From NCBI GenBank assembly GCA_005223085.1, contig NJBP01000007.1, forward strand, positions 1 to 59,081: DNA of 59,081 bases. The letters are read 5' to 3'. This document shows, piece after piece, positions 12,817 through 52,749 of the stretch. Position 1 is the first letter of the stretch. Every line of letters begins with the position of its first letter. The stretch comes from Candidatus Aerophobetes bacterium Ae_b3b (GTDB taxonomy: Bacteria > Aerophobota > Aerophobia > Aerophobales > AE-B3A). The position numbers and the translations under genes were made by a program. Under the pieces are notes generated by a model. It did not search any database and was not told the DNA's origin. It worked only from the letters and a program-made list of their open reading frames with translations.

Positions 12817-13872
12817 TTACTTCAACTTACCCAGACGTTGTCTGATGACCTTTGCCCTTAATTCGTCGCGGTCTAAGGGAGCCATCTCCTTTCCTTCTTT
12901 AACCTGAAGCTGAGCGGGGGTAATCATGAAAAACAGCTCATTTAGAACCTGAACATTAAGTTGCGGGAATAAATTTAAACTGACTCCGAGTCTTAGCTTT
13001 GAGAGCAAGCTTATCGCCTCTTCTGAGCGCAAAAGGTAAGCGCTAACTAAAGTTCCGTAGGCCCTTCCCATCTGATCTCTAAGCTGAATTCCGTCTCGTC
13101 TAAGTAAAATATCCCGGGCCTTTTTTTCCTGTCCTACCACTTGTCGGGTCACGCTTTCCACATGGTCCACAACTTCCTCCTCCCTTGAACCCAGAGTGAC
13201 CTGATTCGATATTTGGAAAAAATCACCTTGAGATTTGGTCCCTTCCCCATACAGTCCTCTTGCTACCAAACCCAATTTGGAGATGTTCTTCATTAATTCA
13301 TCAATCTTATGAGTAACTGCCAAGGCAGGTAGATGTAACATGCACGAAGCTCTCATTCCGGTACCCGTATTGGTGGGGCAGGAGGTCAGGTAACCCCATT
13401 GAGGCAGAAAGGCATAATCTAAATTCTGTTCTAACTCATCGTCTATTTTATCAGTCAACCGCCAGGCATCCATTAACTGAAGCCCGGAAAGAATGCTCTG
13501 GAGACGTAGATGATCCTCCTCATTCACCATCAAAGAGATCATCTCCCTTTTTTCAGTGATCAAAAACCTATGAGGCCCTCCAGAACTAAATTCGGGGCTG
13601 ATGAGGTGCCTTTCTAAGAGAAATCTTCTCTCGGTGGAAGAAAGTTCGCTCATCTTGATCAGGCGACTATTCTTTAGATAATGAGACCTCTTTACAGCAT
13701 TGAGAACTTTATCGGAAACGTCCTTCAATACAGAATCGTGAGCCCAAGGAGGAAAGGTAAAACCTTCTAGGTTGCGTGCCAGTCTAACCCGACAACTAAA
13801 AACAATTTCTGCCTCCGGTCCATCTGCTCTTGACCATTGACTGGCTGAATTGGCCATCTCTTGAAGAATCAT
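12817..13872 (-). CDS. mcsB: Protein arginine kinase McsB
   Basis: McsB is a phosphagen-kinase-fold enzyme that phosphorylates protein arginines, marking proteins for ClpCP in Firmicutes. The 351-residue protein shows FSCRVRLARNLEGF (about 25-38), the catalytic-cysteine region TSCPTNTGTGMRAS (about 163-176) and, near the C-terminus, RDELRA, which fits the RDxxRA phosphoarginine receptor motif of allosterically regulated McsB. It overlaps mcsA by 4 nt (ATGA). Unlike the Bacillus arrangement, no ctsR or clpC lies beside it; tilS follows. A candidate phosphoarginine phosphatase is encoded at 51164-52255. Confidence 0.93.
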   Translation of the reverse strand: MILQEMANSASQWSRADGPEAEIVFSCRVRLARNLEGFTFPPWAHDSVLKDVSDKVLNAVKRSHYLKNSRLIKMSELSSTERRFLLERHLISPEFSSGGPHRFLITEKREMISLMVNEEDHLRLQSILSGLQLMDAWRLTDKIDDELEQNLDYAFLPQWGYLTSCPTNTGTGMRASCMLHLPALAVTHKIDELMKNISKLGLVARGLYGEGTKSQGDFFQISNQVTLGSREEEVVDHVESVTRQVVGQEKKARDILLRRDGIQLRDQMGRAYGTLVSAYLLRSEEAISLLSKLRLGVSLNLFPQLNVQVLNELFFMITPAQLQVKEGKEMAPLDRDELRAKVIRQRLGKLK

Positions 13873-14363
13873 TTCTCTCTTTCTAACCTACGAATTTCAT
13901 CTCTCAGTTTAGCTGCCCTTTCATACTCTTCTTTTCTCACCAGGATTTCTAGCTCCTTGCGCAACTCATAAATCCGTCTTTCCTTTTGGTCCTCCACTTT
14001 TCCTTTTTTAGGAACCTTGCCGGAATGGCGAACTTTGCCCTGAATTCTCTCGAGAAGTGGAGTCAGATATTCCTCAAGCTCCTGATAACACAATCCACAG
14101 CCTATTTTCCCCTTCCTCTTTATATCCCCATAGCTTAATCCACAATGCGAACAGGTGACAGAAGCCTCTTCAGAAAGTGGAACTTCAAGCTCGGTTAATC
14201 CTGCCATAAGATCAGACAGAGAAAAACTGGGCATAAAAAATGTCTGACCTAATCCTTTCTTTTGGGCGCAGATTTCACATAAGTGAAGTTCTTTCACCTG
14301 TCCATTTGTCATTTCCTGGAAATGAAATGTAGCTTCTCTCTCTCCGCAAACCTGACAGATCAT
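13869..14363 (-). CDS. mcsA: McsA, activator of McsB
   Basis: McsA is the zinc-finger partner that activates McsB. The 164-residue protein has four Cys pairs (CQVCGE, CEICAQ, CSHCG and CGLCY, within residues 3-80) and a C-terminal UVR-type helical hairpin (RKELEILVRKEEYERAAKLR, about 133-152). It is the first gene after a predicted promoter in the truA-mcsA gap, so the mcsA-mcsB-tilS-hisB-dtd-pil series may be driven from there. No CtsR-like operator could be recognised. Confidence 0.9.
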   Translation of the reverse strand: MICQVCGEREATFHFQEMTNGQVKELHLCEICAQKKGLGQTFFMPSFSLSDLMAGLTELEVPLSEEASVTCSHCGLSYGDIKRKGKIGCGLCYQELEEYLTPLLERIQGKVRHSGKVPKKGKVEDQKERRIYELRKELEILVRKEEYERAAKLRDEIRRLEREK

Positions 14364-39436: not shown

Positions 39437-39871
39437 TTATTTCAACTCTACTTTGGCTCCTACCGCCTCCAAGGTTTCCTTGATCTTTTGAGCCTCTTCC
39501 TTGCTCACCCCCTGCTTAACTGGTTTAGGGGCCTGTTCCACTAAATCCTTAGCTTCTTTTAGGCCCAGAGAGGTAAGTTTTCTCACCTCTTTAATTACCT
39601 GAATCTTCTTGCTTCCTATCTCACTTAGCACTACCTCAAATTCGGTCTTTTCTTCTTCCTTCTTTTCACCCGAAGGGGCAACTTGAGAAATCACTTGGGG
39701 AGCAGCTGCTTCCACTCCAAATCTATCTTCAAGTCCCTTTATTAGTTCCGAAAGCTCCAGCACATTCATTCCCTCTACCGCTTTTATAACCTCTTCTTTC
39801 TTATCTACTTTAACTTTGGGCTTATCACTTTTTTCATCCTTTTTTTTCACCACGGGTGGTGTCTTAACCAT
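39437..39871 (-). CDS. rplL: 50S ribosomal protein L7/L12 from an internal start
   Basis: L7/L12 forms the flexible stalk that recruits translational GTPases, in 4-6 copies bound to one L10. From ATG 39871, preceded by GGAGG with seven spacer bases, the product is 144 residues. It has an unusual Lys-rich N-terminal extension of about 22 residues, then the dimerisation domain ([20 protein letters not shown]), an Ala/Pro hinge, and the C-terminal domain ([20 protein letters not shown], ending [14 protein letters not shown]). The same frame is open into rplJ upstream with no stop codon. Multiple free L12 copies are essential, so initiation at this internal ATG is expected. Confidence 0.9.
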
Positions 39872-40393
39872 AGATGAACCTCCTTTTTTCTCCAAAATCG
39901 AAGTCAGCAAAAAAATTAAATTGCCCATGGGGGAACTCAAGACGCCTAACAGTCGCCTTAAAGGGAACTGCATCAGGGTCAAAAGTTGTACCAAGAGAAT
40001 CTCCCGTGAGGGAAGTCCACCCAGAACCTTTATTTTATCTCCCTCCAAGATCTCTCCCCCCAGAATCCCTCCTTTAAACGTTAATTGAGGATGATCTAAA
40101 ACAAAATCCTTAAGTATTTTAGCCGAGGCCAAAGGATCGTGCTCAACAAAGACTATCCCGGTGCATCCGTAAAAAAACTTACCGACCCCTTCCAAATCTG
40201 CTCCCCCTACAGCCCGAGAGGCCAGAGTATTTTTTACCACCAGGAACCTGGCGCCTTTACTCCTTAATAACTTGCGAAGCTCCGTAAGTTCAGTCACCTT
40301 CAATCCCTGATAATCCACTACGAAGGAAGCCTCACTTCTTTCCAATCCTTCTTCAACCTTTTTTACCTTTACTATTTTGTCCTCTAAACTCAT
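39437..40393 (-). CDS. rplJ: 50S ribosomal protein L10, in-frame with L7/L12 (apparent fusion)
   Basis: L10 anchors the L12 stalk to 23S rRNA. The L10 part is about 174 residues from ATG 40393 ([47 protein letters not shown]), a normal full length. Instead of a stop, the frame runs through LEKKGGSSM directly into rplL, giving a 318-residue fusion. The junction contains a run of six A: one extra A there would place a TAA stop just after the rplL ATG, the usual overlapping arrangement. So this is either a true fusion, a slippage site, or a homopolymer error. The start lies one base after the rplA stop with GGAG ten bases upstream. Confidence 0.85.
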
Positions 40394-40394
40394 T

Positions 40395-41096
40395 TCACAA
40401 AATCTCCAGGGCTTTTTGCACATTTACCCCTATTCCTGGACCCATGCTGGAGCACAGGGAAATCCCCTTAATGTATCTTCCCTTCACCGTAGAAGGCTTA
40501 ACTTCTATCAGAGATCTGAGTAAGGCCTTGAGGTTATCCAATAAAGCTTCTTCGTTGAAGGAAGCTCTTCCCAGCGCGGCATGAATTACTCCGGTGGCAT
40601 CACTTCTGTACTCAATTTTACCCTTCTTCAATTCTTCTACAACTCTTGCAGGATTATCACTCACCGTTCCTACTTTGGGAGAAGGCATCAAACCTTTCGG
40701 TCCCAGAATTCGACCTAACTTGGCCACTACTCTCATCATCCTGGTAGTCGAGACTACCGCATCAAATTCTAACCAACCAGCCTCAATTCTCTTAGCTAAC
40801 TCTTCTCCATCCACATAGTCAGCTCCGGCCTCTTTAGCTCGCTCAGCCTCATCTCCCTCAGCGAAAACGGCTACTTTTATCTTCTTTCCTAGACCCTGAG
40901 GAAGTACAACTGTCCCCCTTACCCGTTCTCCCTTCGTTTTAGGCTTTACATTCAGGCAAATAGCTACCTCGACCGACTCCTCAAACTTGCAATTAGAGGT
41001 CTCTTTGACCAGCTTCACAGCATCCATGGCGACATATAACTTATTCTTATCTATCTTCTTTTTTAACAGGAGATATCTCTTTCCTCTTCTTCCCAT
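40395..41096 (-). CDS. rplA: 50S ribosomal protein L1
   Basis: L1 forms the mobile stalk at the E site and often represses its own operon. The 233-residue protein has [53 protein letters not shown] and the closing [15 protein letters not shown]. It follows rplK after 2 nt. Length is standard. Confidence 0.97.
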
Positions 41097-49894: not shown

Positions 49895-51151
49895 ATGAGC
49901 CTCAAGGAAGATATTCTAGAGATAGCCAAACAGGCTAAATTTTCCAGTCAAAGATTAGCTAACCTGTCCTCAAAGATAAAGGATGAGGTCCTCTCAAGAA
50001 TGGCCGAGGCCATCGAAACCAATGCCAGAAGAATAAAAGAGGAAAACTGCAAAGATGTGGCCTCAGCCAGAGAAAAAGGATTATCTGGTGCCTTAATAGA
50101 CAGATTAACCTTAAACGATAAGAGGATCAGACAGATGGCCGATAGCCTAAGACAGATGGCTAGACTGGAGGATCCTATAGGAAAAGTGGATAAAATGTGG
50201 AGAAGGCCCAATGGACTTTTGATTGGTAAAGTAATCGTTCCCCTGGGAGTAATAGGCATTATTTATGAAGCACGGCCCAACGTCACGGTAGATGCTGCTG
50301 TACTCTGTCTAAAGGCGGGAAACGCTACCATCTTAAGAGGAGGATCTGAGGCCATCCATTCTAATATCTGTCTGGCCGATCTTTTGATAAAAGTAATAGA
50401 GGAGGCAGAACTTCCCGCAGGATCTATTCAATTAATAAGAACCACGGATAGAAATGCCGTAATGGAGATGTTAAAGCTGGATGAATATATCGACGTCATC
50501 ATTCCGCGAGGAGGAGAAAGCCTCATTCGTACAGTTACTGAAAACTCCACTATTCCGGTAATTAAACATTATAAAGGTGTGTGTCACACCTATGTAGATG
50601 AAGAGGCAGATTTAGACATGGCTGAGAAAATTGCCTTCAACGCTAAGGTTCAGCGACCAGGAGTTTGTAATGCTATGGAAACCCTTCTGGTAAATGAAAA
50701 GATTGCCGCTCAATTTCTACCAGGCATGATCAAAAAATTTCAAGGAGCAGGAGTGGAGGTTCGGGGAGATGAAAAGACCTGCAAAATAGCGGAAGGAATC
50801 AAGCCCGCTACTGAGGAGGACTGGCAGACTGAGTATCTCGATCTTATTCTCTCTGTTAAAGTGGTGAAAGGAATCGAGGCCGCTATCCATCATATCAATA
50901 GATATGGCTCCCATCACTCTGATGCTATCGTTACCGAAAATTTAAGAAAATCGAGGAAATTCTTGCAGGAGGTTGACTCAGCAGCCGTTTATGTGAACGC
51001 CTCCACCCGGTTTACTGACGGAGGTGAGTTTGGTCTGGGAGCGGAGATAGGAATTAGCACCCAGAAATTACATGCTCGAGGCCCAATGGGAGTATGCGAG
51101 CTGACTAGCAGCAAGTTTATTATATTAGGGGACGGACAGATAAGAGAATAG
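49895..51151 (+). CDS. proA: Gamma-glutamyl phosphate reductase
   Basis: ProA reduces glutamyl-5-phosphate to glutamate semialdehyde with NADPH in proline synthesis. The 418-residue aldehyde-dehydrogenase-superfamily enzyme shows VPLGVIGIIYEARPNVTVDA, LKAGNATILRGGSEAIHSN and the catalytic-cysteine segment VQRPGVCNAMETLLVN. It ends with FGLGAEIGISTQKLHARGPM and GVCELTSSKF. AAGGAG lies six bases before the ATG. ProB is not in the window. Confidence 0.96.
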   Translation: MSLKEDILEIAKQAKFSSQRLANLSSKIKDEVLSRMAEAIETNARRIKEENCKDVASAREKGLSGALIDRLTLNDKRIRQMADSLRQMARLEDPIGKVDKMWRRPNGLLIGKVIVPLGVIGIIYEARPNVTVDAAVLCLKAGNATILRGGSEAIHSNICLADLLIKVIEEAELPAGSIQLIRTTDRNAVMEMLKLDEYIDVIIPRGGESLIRTVTENSTIPVIKHYKGVCHTYVDEEADLDMAEKIAFNAKVQRPGVCNAMETLLVNEKIAAQFLPGMIKKFQGAGVEVRGDEKTCKIAEGIKPATEEDWQTEYLDLILSVKVVKGIEAAIHHINRYGSHHSDAIVTENLRKSRKFLQEVDSAAVYVNASTRFTDGGEFGLGAEIGISTQKLHARGPMGVCELTSSKFIILGDGQIRE

Positions 51152-51163
51152 AGACGTGGTAAG

Positions 51164-52255
51164 ATGAAAATTATTAAGATAGATCCTGACCATCCGGAAG
51201 AGAAGAAAATAGAGAAAGCCATTCAAATATTGAAAAAGGGTAAGATAGTAGCCTTTCCCACTGATACAGTCTATGGTCTCGGAGTTAGTGCTGAGAATGA
51301 GGCAGCCATAAAGAGACTCTACTGGGTGAAAAAAAGGCCATTAGATAAACCCATGACCTTGTTCTTAAGAAAAAAAGGAGGCTTCATACGGTTCGTCCAG
51401 GCTGTTCCGCTTTTTGCTCAAAGGTTGATAAATGAGTTCTGGCCCGGTCCCCTTACTTTAATCTTTAAGGCAAGCCAGGGCAGTCCTCCCAGTCTCATCA
51501 GCAAACAAGGAAAAATTGGACTAAGACTCTCGGCACATTCTATTCCCCGAACAATTATGGAAAAAGGAGAAATTCTGCTGGCGACCACCAGTGCTAATCT
51601 GTCTGGTGAATTCACCCCTTCTACTTCTGGGGATCTGGATAAAGCGTTATTAGAGGATATAGATCTTCTCATCGATGGAGGAGAGAGTCTACTAGGCGAG
51701 GAATCTACCATAGTAGATGTCACTCGGTTTCCTCCTCTTTTAATCAGGGAAGGGTGGTTACTCCCAGCCCAAATAGAGAAAGTATGGCAGGGAAAAGGAG
51801 ATGTTCTCTTTGTCTGCACAGGCAATACATGTCGAAGTCCTATGGCAGAGGGTCTATTAAAAAAGCTATGGCCTCAAAGAAAAAAAAATGAGATAAAAAT
51901 AGATTCGGCAGGAACAAGTGCCCTGCCCGGCTTGCCCTCAACTTCTTTAACCCAAAAAATAATGAAAGAAAAGGGAGTGGATATCTCTTACCATGAGAGT
52001 AAGCCTTTAAACCAAAAGATGGTGGAAGAGGCTGATTTAATCTTAGTAATGGAAAAGATGCATAAAAACAAAGTCCTGGATCTTTCCTCTTTAGCCGAAG
52101 GTAAGGTCTTCTTGCTTACAAAATTTGCTTTAGGAGTAGATGAAGAAATTCTTGATCCTATGGGGAGATCGGAAGAGAGTTATCGAGAATGCGCGAGGGA
52201 GATTGAAAAAAATATAGAAGGCGTGCTGGAAAAATTGATGGGCTGTGGCAAATGA
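51164..52255 (+). CDS. Fusion of L-threonylcarbamoyladenylate synthase (Sua5/YrdC) and low-MW phosphatase (YwlE-like)
   Basis: A 363-residue two-domain protein. Residues 1-205 are Sua5/YrdC, which makes threonylcarbamoyl-AMP for the t6A tRNA modification: [10 protein letters not shown] (31-40), KKRPLDKPM (56-64) and TTSANLSGE (141-149). Residues 213-360 are a low-molecular-weight phosphatase: P-loop CTGNTCRS (218-225) and general acid in [13 protein letters not shown] Thr at the fifth P-loop position (Thr222) is the feature known to favour phosphoarginine in Bacillus YwlE, where tyrosine phosphatases usually have a bulky aliphatic residue. In Bacillus the separate genes ywlC and ywlE are near neighbours. 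That this domain reverses McsB action is inference. It overlaps comEB by 4 nt. Confidence 0.88.
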
Positions 52256-52749
52256 AGGAAAAACGACCTTCCTGGGACGAATATTTTACGCAGATTACTC
52301 ATTTAGTAGCTACTCGTTCCACCTGCTTGAGGCGAAAGGTGGGAGCTTTATTGGTCAAGGAAAAGAGAATTCTTTCTACCGGGTACAATGGTGCCCCTCG
52401 TAATTTACCTCATTGCAGAGAAGCAGGATGTCTTCGTGGTAAACTAAATATCCCCTCCGGGGAAAGACAAGAGATCTGTCGGGGTCTGCATGCTGAACAA
52501 AACGCCATAATTCAAGCTGCTTTATACGGAATAAGTATCAAGAACTCAATCCTTTACTGCACACACCAACCCTGTATAACCTGCAGTAAGATGATAATAA
52601 ATGCAGGAATAAAAAGAATTATTTTCCAGGGTGAGTATCCTGATCCCCTGGCTCGCCAAATGCTTGAAGAAGCCGAAGTTGAACTAATCAAAATGGGAGA
52701 GGAAAATGCCGGAAGAGGCTCTGAAAAGAATAGAAAAAGCGGAAAGTGA
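52252..52749 (+). CDS. comEB: dCMP deaminase family protein (ComEB-like)
   Basis: A 165-residue zinc cytidine/deoxycytidylate deaminase, expected to make dUMP from dCMP. It has [20 protein letters not shown], the zinc ligands HAEQNAII (about 83-90) and [11 protein letters not shown], plus an internal Cys/His-bearing insert ([13 protein letters not shown]) typical of dCMP deaminases. The start overlaps the previous stop (ATGA). The last 44 nt overlap the start of ahaH out of frame. The competence-linked symbol is by family only. Confidence 0.88.

Follow-up and report, generated by a model that had tools for sequence, protein, structure and literature searches.

Why should an enzyme of tRNA modification and a phosphatase share one polypeptide, and what would each half do? 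The question arises from a gene in a 59,081-nucleotide stretch of DNA from Candidatus Aerophobetes bacterium Ae_b3b (assembly GCA_005223085.1, contig NJBP01000007.1, positions 1 to 59,081 of the forward strand), the whole of which is referred to below as the window. The gene is one uninterrupted open reading frame (ORF) at 51164-52255 on the plus strand, encoding 363 amino acids (aa) without an internal stop and joining a TsaC domain to a YwlE-type phosphatase. Pfam places Sua5_yciO_yrdC at residues 21-197 (1e-49) and LMWPc at residues 214-352 (2.1e-35), both far above cut-off, and the Pfam scan found no third family in the protein. Judging from the sequence, we consider it likely that the protein is bifunctional, a TsaC and a phosphoarginine phosphatase with both domains probably active. 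The features of the gene are:

51164-52255, plus strand: TsaC-YwlE fusion gene, 363 aa; a single ORF with two Pfam domains
51164-51793, plus strand: TsaC-type L-threonylcarbamoyladenylate synthase domain, residues 1-210; PF01300 (1e-49), TIGR00057 and structural model
51329-51337, plus strand: KxR catalytic motif, K56 and R58, from literature and sequence; both invariant in a 13-row alignment
51587-51598, plus strand: TSAN, the TsaC signature Thr142 followed by SxN (S143, N145); these three residues do not vary in the 13-row alignment
51794-52252, plus strand: YwlE-type low-molecular-weight (LMW) phosphatase domain, residues 211-363; PF01451 (2.1e-35), structural model and PDB match
51815-51838, plus strand: P-loop CTGNTCRS, residues 218-225, with C218 as nucleophile, T222 for specificity and R224; from sequence and literature
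52154-52183, plus strand: D331-P332 ... Y340, the D-P-Y triad with the general acid Asp; from sequence, invariant in 19 fusions

The source assembly is a draft of 86 contigs, which would favour an assembly or frameshift artefact. Since the fusion recurs in one frame across 15 genomes of the phylum, and the identical frame is open in unrelated phyla as well, read or assembly errors do not explain it; this explanation was ruled out and we give it practically no chance. A stop or frameshift between the domains, which the earlier note on this sequence had named as one result that would count against a fusion, was not found anywhere in the frame. LMWPc was detected in 15 of 17 Candidatus Aerophobetes genomes, the window's included, and is fused in one frame with YrdC in all 15. 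The fusion is not peculiar to the window genome; it is the rule in members of the phylum that have the phosphatase. These proteins span seven families of Aerophobetes, and the others are 43-86% identical to the window protein, whose closest relative among 80 loci (86% identity over residues 49-363) also lies in a Candidatus Aerophobetes genome. The fusion of genome G001 is interrupted by a contig end, G005 has the N-terminal part alone, likewise at a contig end, G002 gave no match for the phosphatase among the 17 genomes, and the sole in-frame stop in G003 is the ordinary C-terminal stop.

The earlier note had described the protein as Sua5 fused to a phosphatase. The fusion stands, as a single ORF with two domains, but the N-terminal half is of the TsaC type. 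It matches TIGR00057 with 179.1 bits against a cut-off of 123.2, and the KxR/SxN tetrad (K56, R58, S143, N145) is present together with T33, S181 and R195, residues whose equivalents are listed for catalysis by both Sua5 and TsaC in the available text of PMC10321239. According to the same text, the residue directly preceding SxN is Thr or Ser in TsaC and Pro in Sua5. Since this residue is T142 in the fusion, residue 62 is Lys, and the SUA5 domain PF03481 is absent in a Pfam scan that does detect it at loci L078 and L080, the synthase is TsaC-type and not Sua5, and is predicted to make threonylcarbamoyl-AMP (TC-AMP). Compared to TsaC, all seven catalytic residues and the signature Thr are shared, but the protein is not single-domain: an LMWPc domain comes second, at the place of Sua5's SUA5 domain. 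Compared to Sua5/TsaC2, the catalytic domain has a like fold, whereas PF03481 is missing, Thr replaces Pro before SxN and Lys occupies position 62. Two Omnitrophota fusions (L057, L058) have the Sua5-type Pro before SxN, seemingly without a SUA5 domain (PF03481 is absent in L058, which was scanned; L057, of 353 aa, was not), and are possibly intermediate between Sua5 and TsaC.

For the C-terminal half, the earlier note had placed Thr at the YwlE specificity position of CTGNTCRS, which is borne out: the fifth P-loop position is Thr222, in the CX4CR-with-Thr pattern of YwlE. In the accessible text of PMC8001253, Thr at this position favours phosphoarginine and Ile favours phosphotyrosine; a Thr-to-Ile exchange raised the activity of PtpB on the generic substrate p-nitrophenyl phosphate (pNPP) and shifted YwlE towards phosphotyrosine. 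The best PDB sequence match of the domain is YwlE (4eti, E 8.7e-25). A tree of 115 phosphatase domains separates 23 classical LMW protein tyrosine phosphatases (LMW-PTPs) from 92 YwlE-type domains, the window copy among the latter, with a Shimodaira-Hasegawa-like approximate likelihood ratio (SH-aLRT) of 99; YwlE itself is outside the tree, and the clade is so named for its loop type and because YwlE is the closest sequence in the PDB. Compared to Bacillus subtilis YwlE and Staphylococcus aureus PtpB, the fold, active site, P-loop and triad are the same, but those enzymes stand alone with about 150 aa, while the window domain, whose activity is predicted, makes up the C-terminal half of a protein that begins with TsaC.

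These features make it probable that the domain removes arginine phosphate, as the earlier note had supposed. Alternatively, it could be a phosphotyrosine phosphatase in which Thr222 is incidental. The LMWPc family is annotated mostly as tyrosine phosphatase, the weak NCBIfam matches of the window domain are of the Wzb type, and linked relatives differ from one another in loop residue 5. However, the domain groups apart from the 23 classical enzymes, the Thr-to-Ile exchanges in PtpB (assayed on pNPP) and in YwlE speak for a role of this residue, and the arginine kinase McsB accompanies 27 of 29 Thr-loop copies in the survey described below. We regard a phosphotyrosine phosphatase as unlikely.

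Structure prediction, proposed earlier as a check, returned a confident two-domain model that matches crystal structures of Sua5 and YwlE. The AlphaFold2 model of the fusion has a predicted local distance difference test (pLDDT) of 93.5 and a predicted template modelling score (pTM) of 0.78; residues 1-210 superimpose on Pyrococcus abyssi Sua5 (6f89; Z 31.4, root-mean-square deviation (rmsd) 1.8, 209 aligned) and residues 212-362 on YwlE (4kk4; Z 25.8, rmsd 2.0, 149 aligned). In the model the junction falls where the first enzyme naturally ends and the second naturally begins, leaving hardly any linker.

The substrate of such a phosphatase would be written in the same cell. The earlier note had reported McsA and McsB with an RDxxRA motif in this genome, and both lie in the window:

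12817-13872, minus strand: mcsB, protein arginine kinase (the writer); NF002194, 412.7 bits against a cut-off of 385
12853-12870, minus strand: RDELRA, the RDxxRA phosphoarginine receptor motif, McsB residues 335-340; the only RDxxRA match in McsB
13869-14363, minus strand: mcsA, activator of McsB; NF053706, 3.2e-47, 160.7 bits, below the cut-off of 210

A second McsB model, NF053707, gave 383.8 bits, below its cut-off of 500. RDxxRA is described as the phosphoarginine receptor motif of McsB in the available text of PMC8370763. Elsewhere in the window genome, contigs C20 and C33 carry two ClpC-like frames with double Clp_N repeats (829 and 823 aa), which are candidate readers of the arginine-phosphate tag, and contig C18 carries a third Clp_N frame of 874 aa.

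McsB turned up in 10 of the 17 Aerophobetes genomes, the same ones that have a full-length McsA. Thr occupies loop position 5 in 12 genomes of the phylum, nine of these with McsB; G015, where McsA and McsB are present, has Ser instead, G016 has Val and G013 has Met. Neither McsA nor McsB was found in the G013 and G016 drafts, which are 82-91% complete. Since these two form a sister pair in the tree (support 94), they represent at most one event of Thr loss tied to McsB loss, and such a tie within Aerophobetes is suggestive only.

Similar pairs occur well outside the phylum, as a survey of domain fusions, also proposed earlier, made evident. Among the 80 loci, 19 were examined, 16 of them chosen because the match spanned both domains. 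Other single-ORF fusions were found in Omnitrophota (L057, L058), Stahlbacteria (L059), Gemmatimonadetes (L077) and Fermentithermobacillaceae (L078, L080), and separate adjacent genes at seven Bacillota loci, one Elusimicrobia locus and one Lentisphaerales locus. At all seven Bacillota loci a Thr-loop ywlE directly follows sua5, in keeping with the parallel that the earlier note had drawn to the ywlC-ywlE neighbourhood; the two genes and their order are those of the fusion, but there they encode two separate proteins. The Fermentithermobacillaceae proteins likewise join a TC-AMP synthase and a YwlE-type phosphatase in one ORF, but retain PF03481 between the two parts, which the window fusion lacks. 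The two architectures may stem from one ancestral fusion through loss of SUA5. An approximately unbiased (AU) test did not reject a single clade of all fused copies (p 0.155), and we claim no number of independent fusions for that reason. McsB is present in 13 of 15 fused or adjacent non-Aerophobetes genomes examined; it was not found in the genomes of L057 and L061, and two of the 13 have neither a Thr nor a Ser loop (L059, Val; L060, Ile).

For a wider comparison, 193 genomes were searched for McsB, the fusion protein, a Thr-loop DNA pattern and LMWPc, and 88 regions were fetched for reading loops and flanks. The counts refer to the 85 copies outside the phylum (62 YwlE-type and 23 classical), which comprise LMWPc matches, mostly at E 1e-24 or better, and linked loci; G041 and G130 were included solely because they are linked, and seven short arsenate-reductase-like rows were excluded. 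Weak McsB matches in G066, G096, G135 and G136 were scored as absent. Flank scanning added nine linked genomes, and G017 and G162 were scored as adjacent, not fused. G162 (contig C6, 6192-6435; L189) has three near-identical P-loop coding matches spaced over less than 250 bases immediately ahead of ywlE and at its start, as if the gene start had been duplicated. A YwlE-type phosphatase of G080 (contig C1 near 189291; L240), with the loop CTGNSCR, is part of a 544-585-aa frame, and no YrdC domain was found in its fetched flank.

In the 115-domain tree, every fused or adjacent copy falls among the 92 YwlE-type domains and none of the 23 classical ones is linked to tsaC. Linkage to tsaC/sua5 was counted for 36 of 62 YwlE-type copies (14 fused, 22 adjacent) versus 0 of 23 classical copies (Fisher p 1.7e-7), the first figure being inflated because some linked rows were chosen for being linked. 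This bias towards the YwlE type would also be expected if the phosphatase served the t6A (N6-threonylcarbamoyladenosine) pathway itself, for instance by removing phosphate that TsaE, reported to be active as a kinase, adds to TsaD or TsaB; 5 of the 36 linked copies, moreover, are in genomes where McsB was not detected. Such a role does not predict that McsB should be commoner with linked copies (31/36) than with unlinked ones (15/26; p 0.013 within the YwlE type), and no paper with both YdiB and YwlE was found in the open-licence literature. We consider a service to t6A synthesis improbable.

Further counts support arginine-phosphate removal. McsB accompanies 46 of 62 YwlE-type copies compared with 5 of 23 classical LMW-PTPs (p 1.6e-5) and, within the YwlE type, Thr loops more often than other residues (27/29 versus 18/31, p 0.0017; two unread loops excluded). 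By loop residue, McsB is present for T 27/29, S 5/5, I 5/11, L 2/6, M 4/6, A 1/2 and V 1/1. Several observations weigh against this assignment. The pairing of Thr loop and McsB is not a strict rule: McsB occurs with linked Val, Ile, Leu, Met or Ala loops in L059, L060, G117, G152, G170, G070, G073 and G144, and it was not found in 3 of the 12 Thr-loop Aerophobetes genomes, all 82-89% complete. The statistics count related genomes as independent rows, and phylogeny is uncontrolled because an independent-pairs test of linkage and of Thr against McsB had only one or two supported pairs in the tree, and thus no power. Finally, fused copies taken alone do not differ significantly from the others in the flank-checked set (McsB with 11/14 versus 40/71, p 0.10).

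Taken as a bifunctional enzyme, the protein would work as follows. Residues 1-210 would convert threonine, bicarbonate and ATP to TC-AMP for t6A37 on tRNA, the opening step of a universal modification, as the only TsaC candidate found in the genome: the single YrdC-domain match lies inside the fusion (genome 88.6% complete). Residues 211-363, which hold the genome's sole LMWPc match, would act as a cysteine phosphatase on arginine phosphates written by the same genome's McsA/McsB, with C218 as predicted nucleophile, R224 binding phosphate, D331 as general acid and T222 favouring phosphoarginine. HypF, according to the available text of PMC9654439, combines an acylphosphatase with YrdC in one protein, and the phosphatase of the fusion could likewise hydrolyse carbamoyl- or carboxy-phosphate beside its YrdC domain. 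Against this, the TsaC domain bears the TC-AMP synthase residues and a threonine site, and nothing in this analysis pointed to an acyl-phosphate substrate. The phosphatase of HypF also has a different fold. We hold this reading to be very improbable.

What, then, does the join itself mean? The two enzymes are joined tail to head at their natural ends, and the best-supported effect would be production of the eraser 1:1 with an essential housekeeping enzyme. The flanking genes lie close:

49895-51151, plus strand: aldehyde dehydrogenase family gene (PF00171), upstream, presumably proA; its end is 12 bases from the fusion start
52252-52749, plus strand: deaminase gene (PF00383; ORF coordinates), downstream, which we take to be comEB-like; its start shares a 4-base overlap with the fusion stop

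A scan of 34 fused loci gave no support to the idea that the phosphatase is translated on its own from a start within the frame: the window fusion has no in-frame start codon within 40 codons before the P-loop, and the relatives have no conserved start with a Shine-Dalgarno sequence before the phosphatase part. The gene structure is accounted for equally well by a neutral fusion, in which neighbours in an old operon lost the intervening stop and are co-expressed without functional coupling. Adjacent copies keep the gene order of the fusion, and some overlap (L079, G025, G034, G109), and the junction is where two complete enzymes would meet. Retention over the seven Aerophobetes families, presence in several phyla and the company of McsB with linked copies might argue for more than this, although all three are compatible with neutrality. 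We put a neutral origin at slightly under an even chance; it overlaps the bifunctional reading, which makes a claim about two activities but none about coupling. It is possible that the fusion ties t6A synthesis to arginine dephosphorylation, as the earlier note had proposed. More tentatively, the pairing of TsaC/Sua5 with YwlE in many phyla, preferentially with McsB, may reflect a real coupling, in which the eraser of the arginine-phosphate degradation tag is tied to the enzyme at the start of t6A synthesis and translation accuracy is balanced with the tagging of aberrant proteins, with the fusion as its extreme case.

A second joined frame was noticed in the window at 39437-40423 on the minus strand, where ribosomal proteins L10 and L7/L12 run together in a single 328-aa frame uninterrupted by a stop; the L12 part starts at an in-frame ATG that has a strong Shine-Dalgarno sequence, AGGAGG. 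One joined L10-L12 alignment was obtained in 9 of 16 Aerophobetes genomes with a match; the frame is fully open in eight, all of which retain the internal Shine-Dalgarno start, and has a stop in G009. The pattern points to a fused L10-L12 made together with free L12 that is initiated internally.

TsaC and YwlE are each known; their joined form is what is new. Arginine phosphorylation has been studied mainly in Bacillota. A search by title and abstract found no description of the fusion or of a TsaC-YwlE-McsB association in the open-licence literature, subscription papers and preprints lying outside its scope. According to the available text of PMC12506659, its PF01300 network was built from proteins of 150-350 aa, so the 363-aa fusion would fall outside it. 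Our findings place the writer, the activator and a likely eraser of phosphoarginine in an uncultured phylum, and the correlation of the Thr loop with McsB offers a genome-scale predictor of arginine phosphatases. The position of the likely eraser beside or within the t6A enzyme in 36 of 62 surveyed copies of its type is a lead to why YwlE keeps company with sua5/tsaC, and the fused or neighbouring genes in many bacteria hint that accurate translation is connected in some way with the quality control of proteins.
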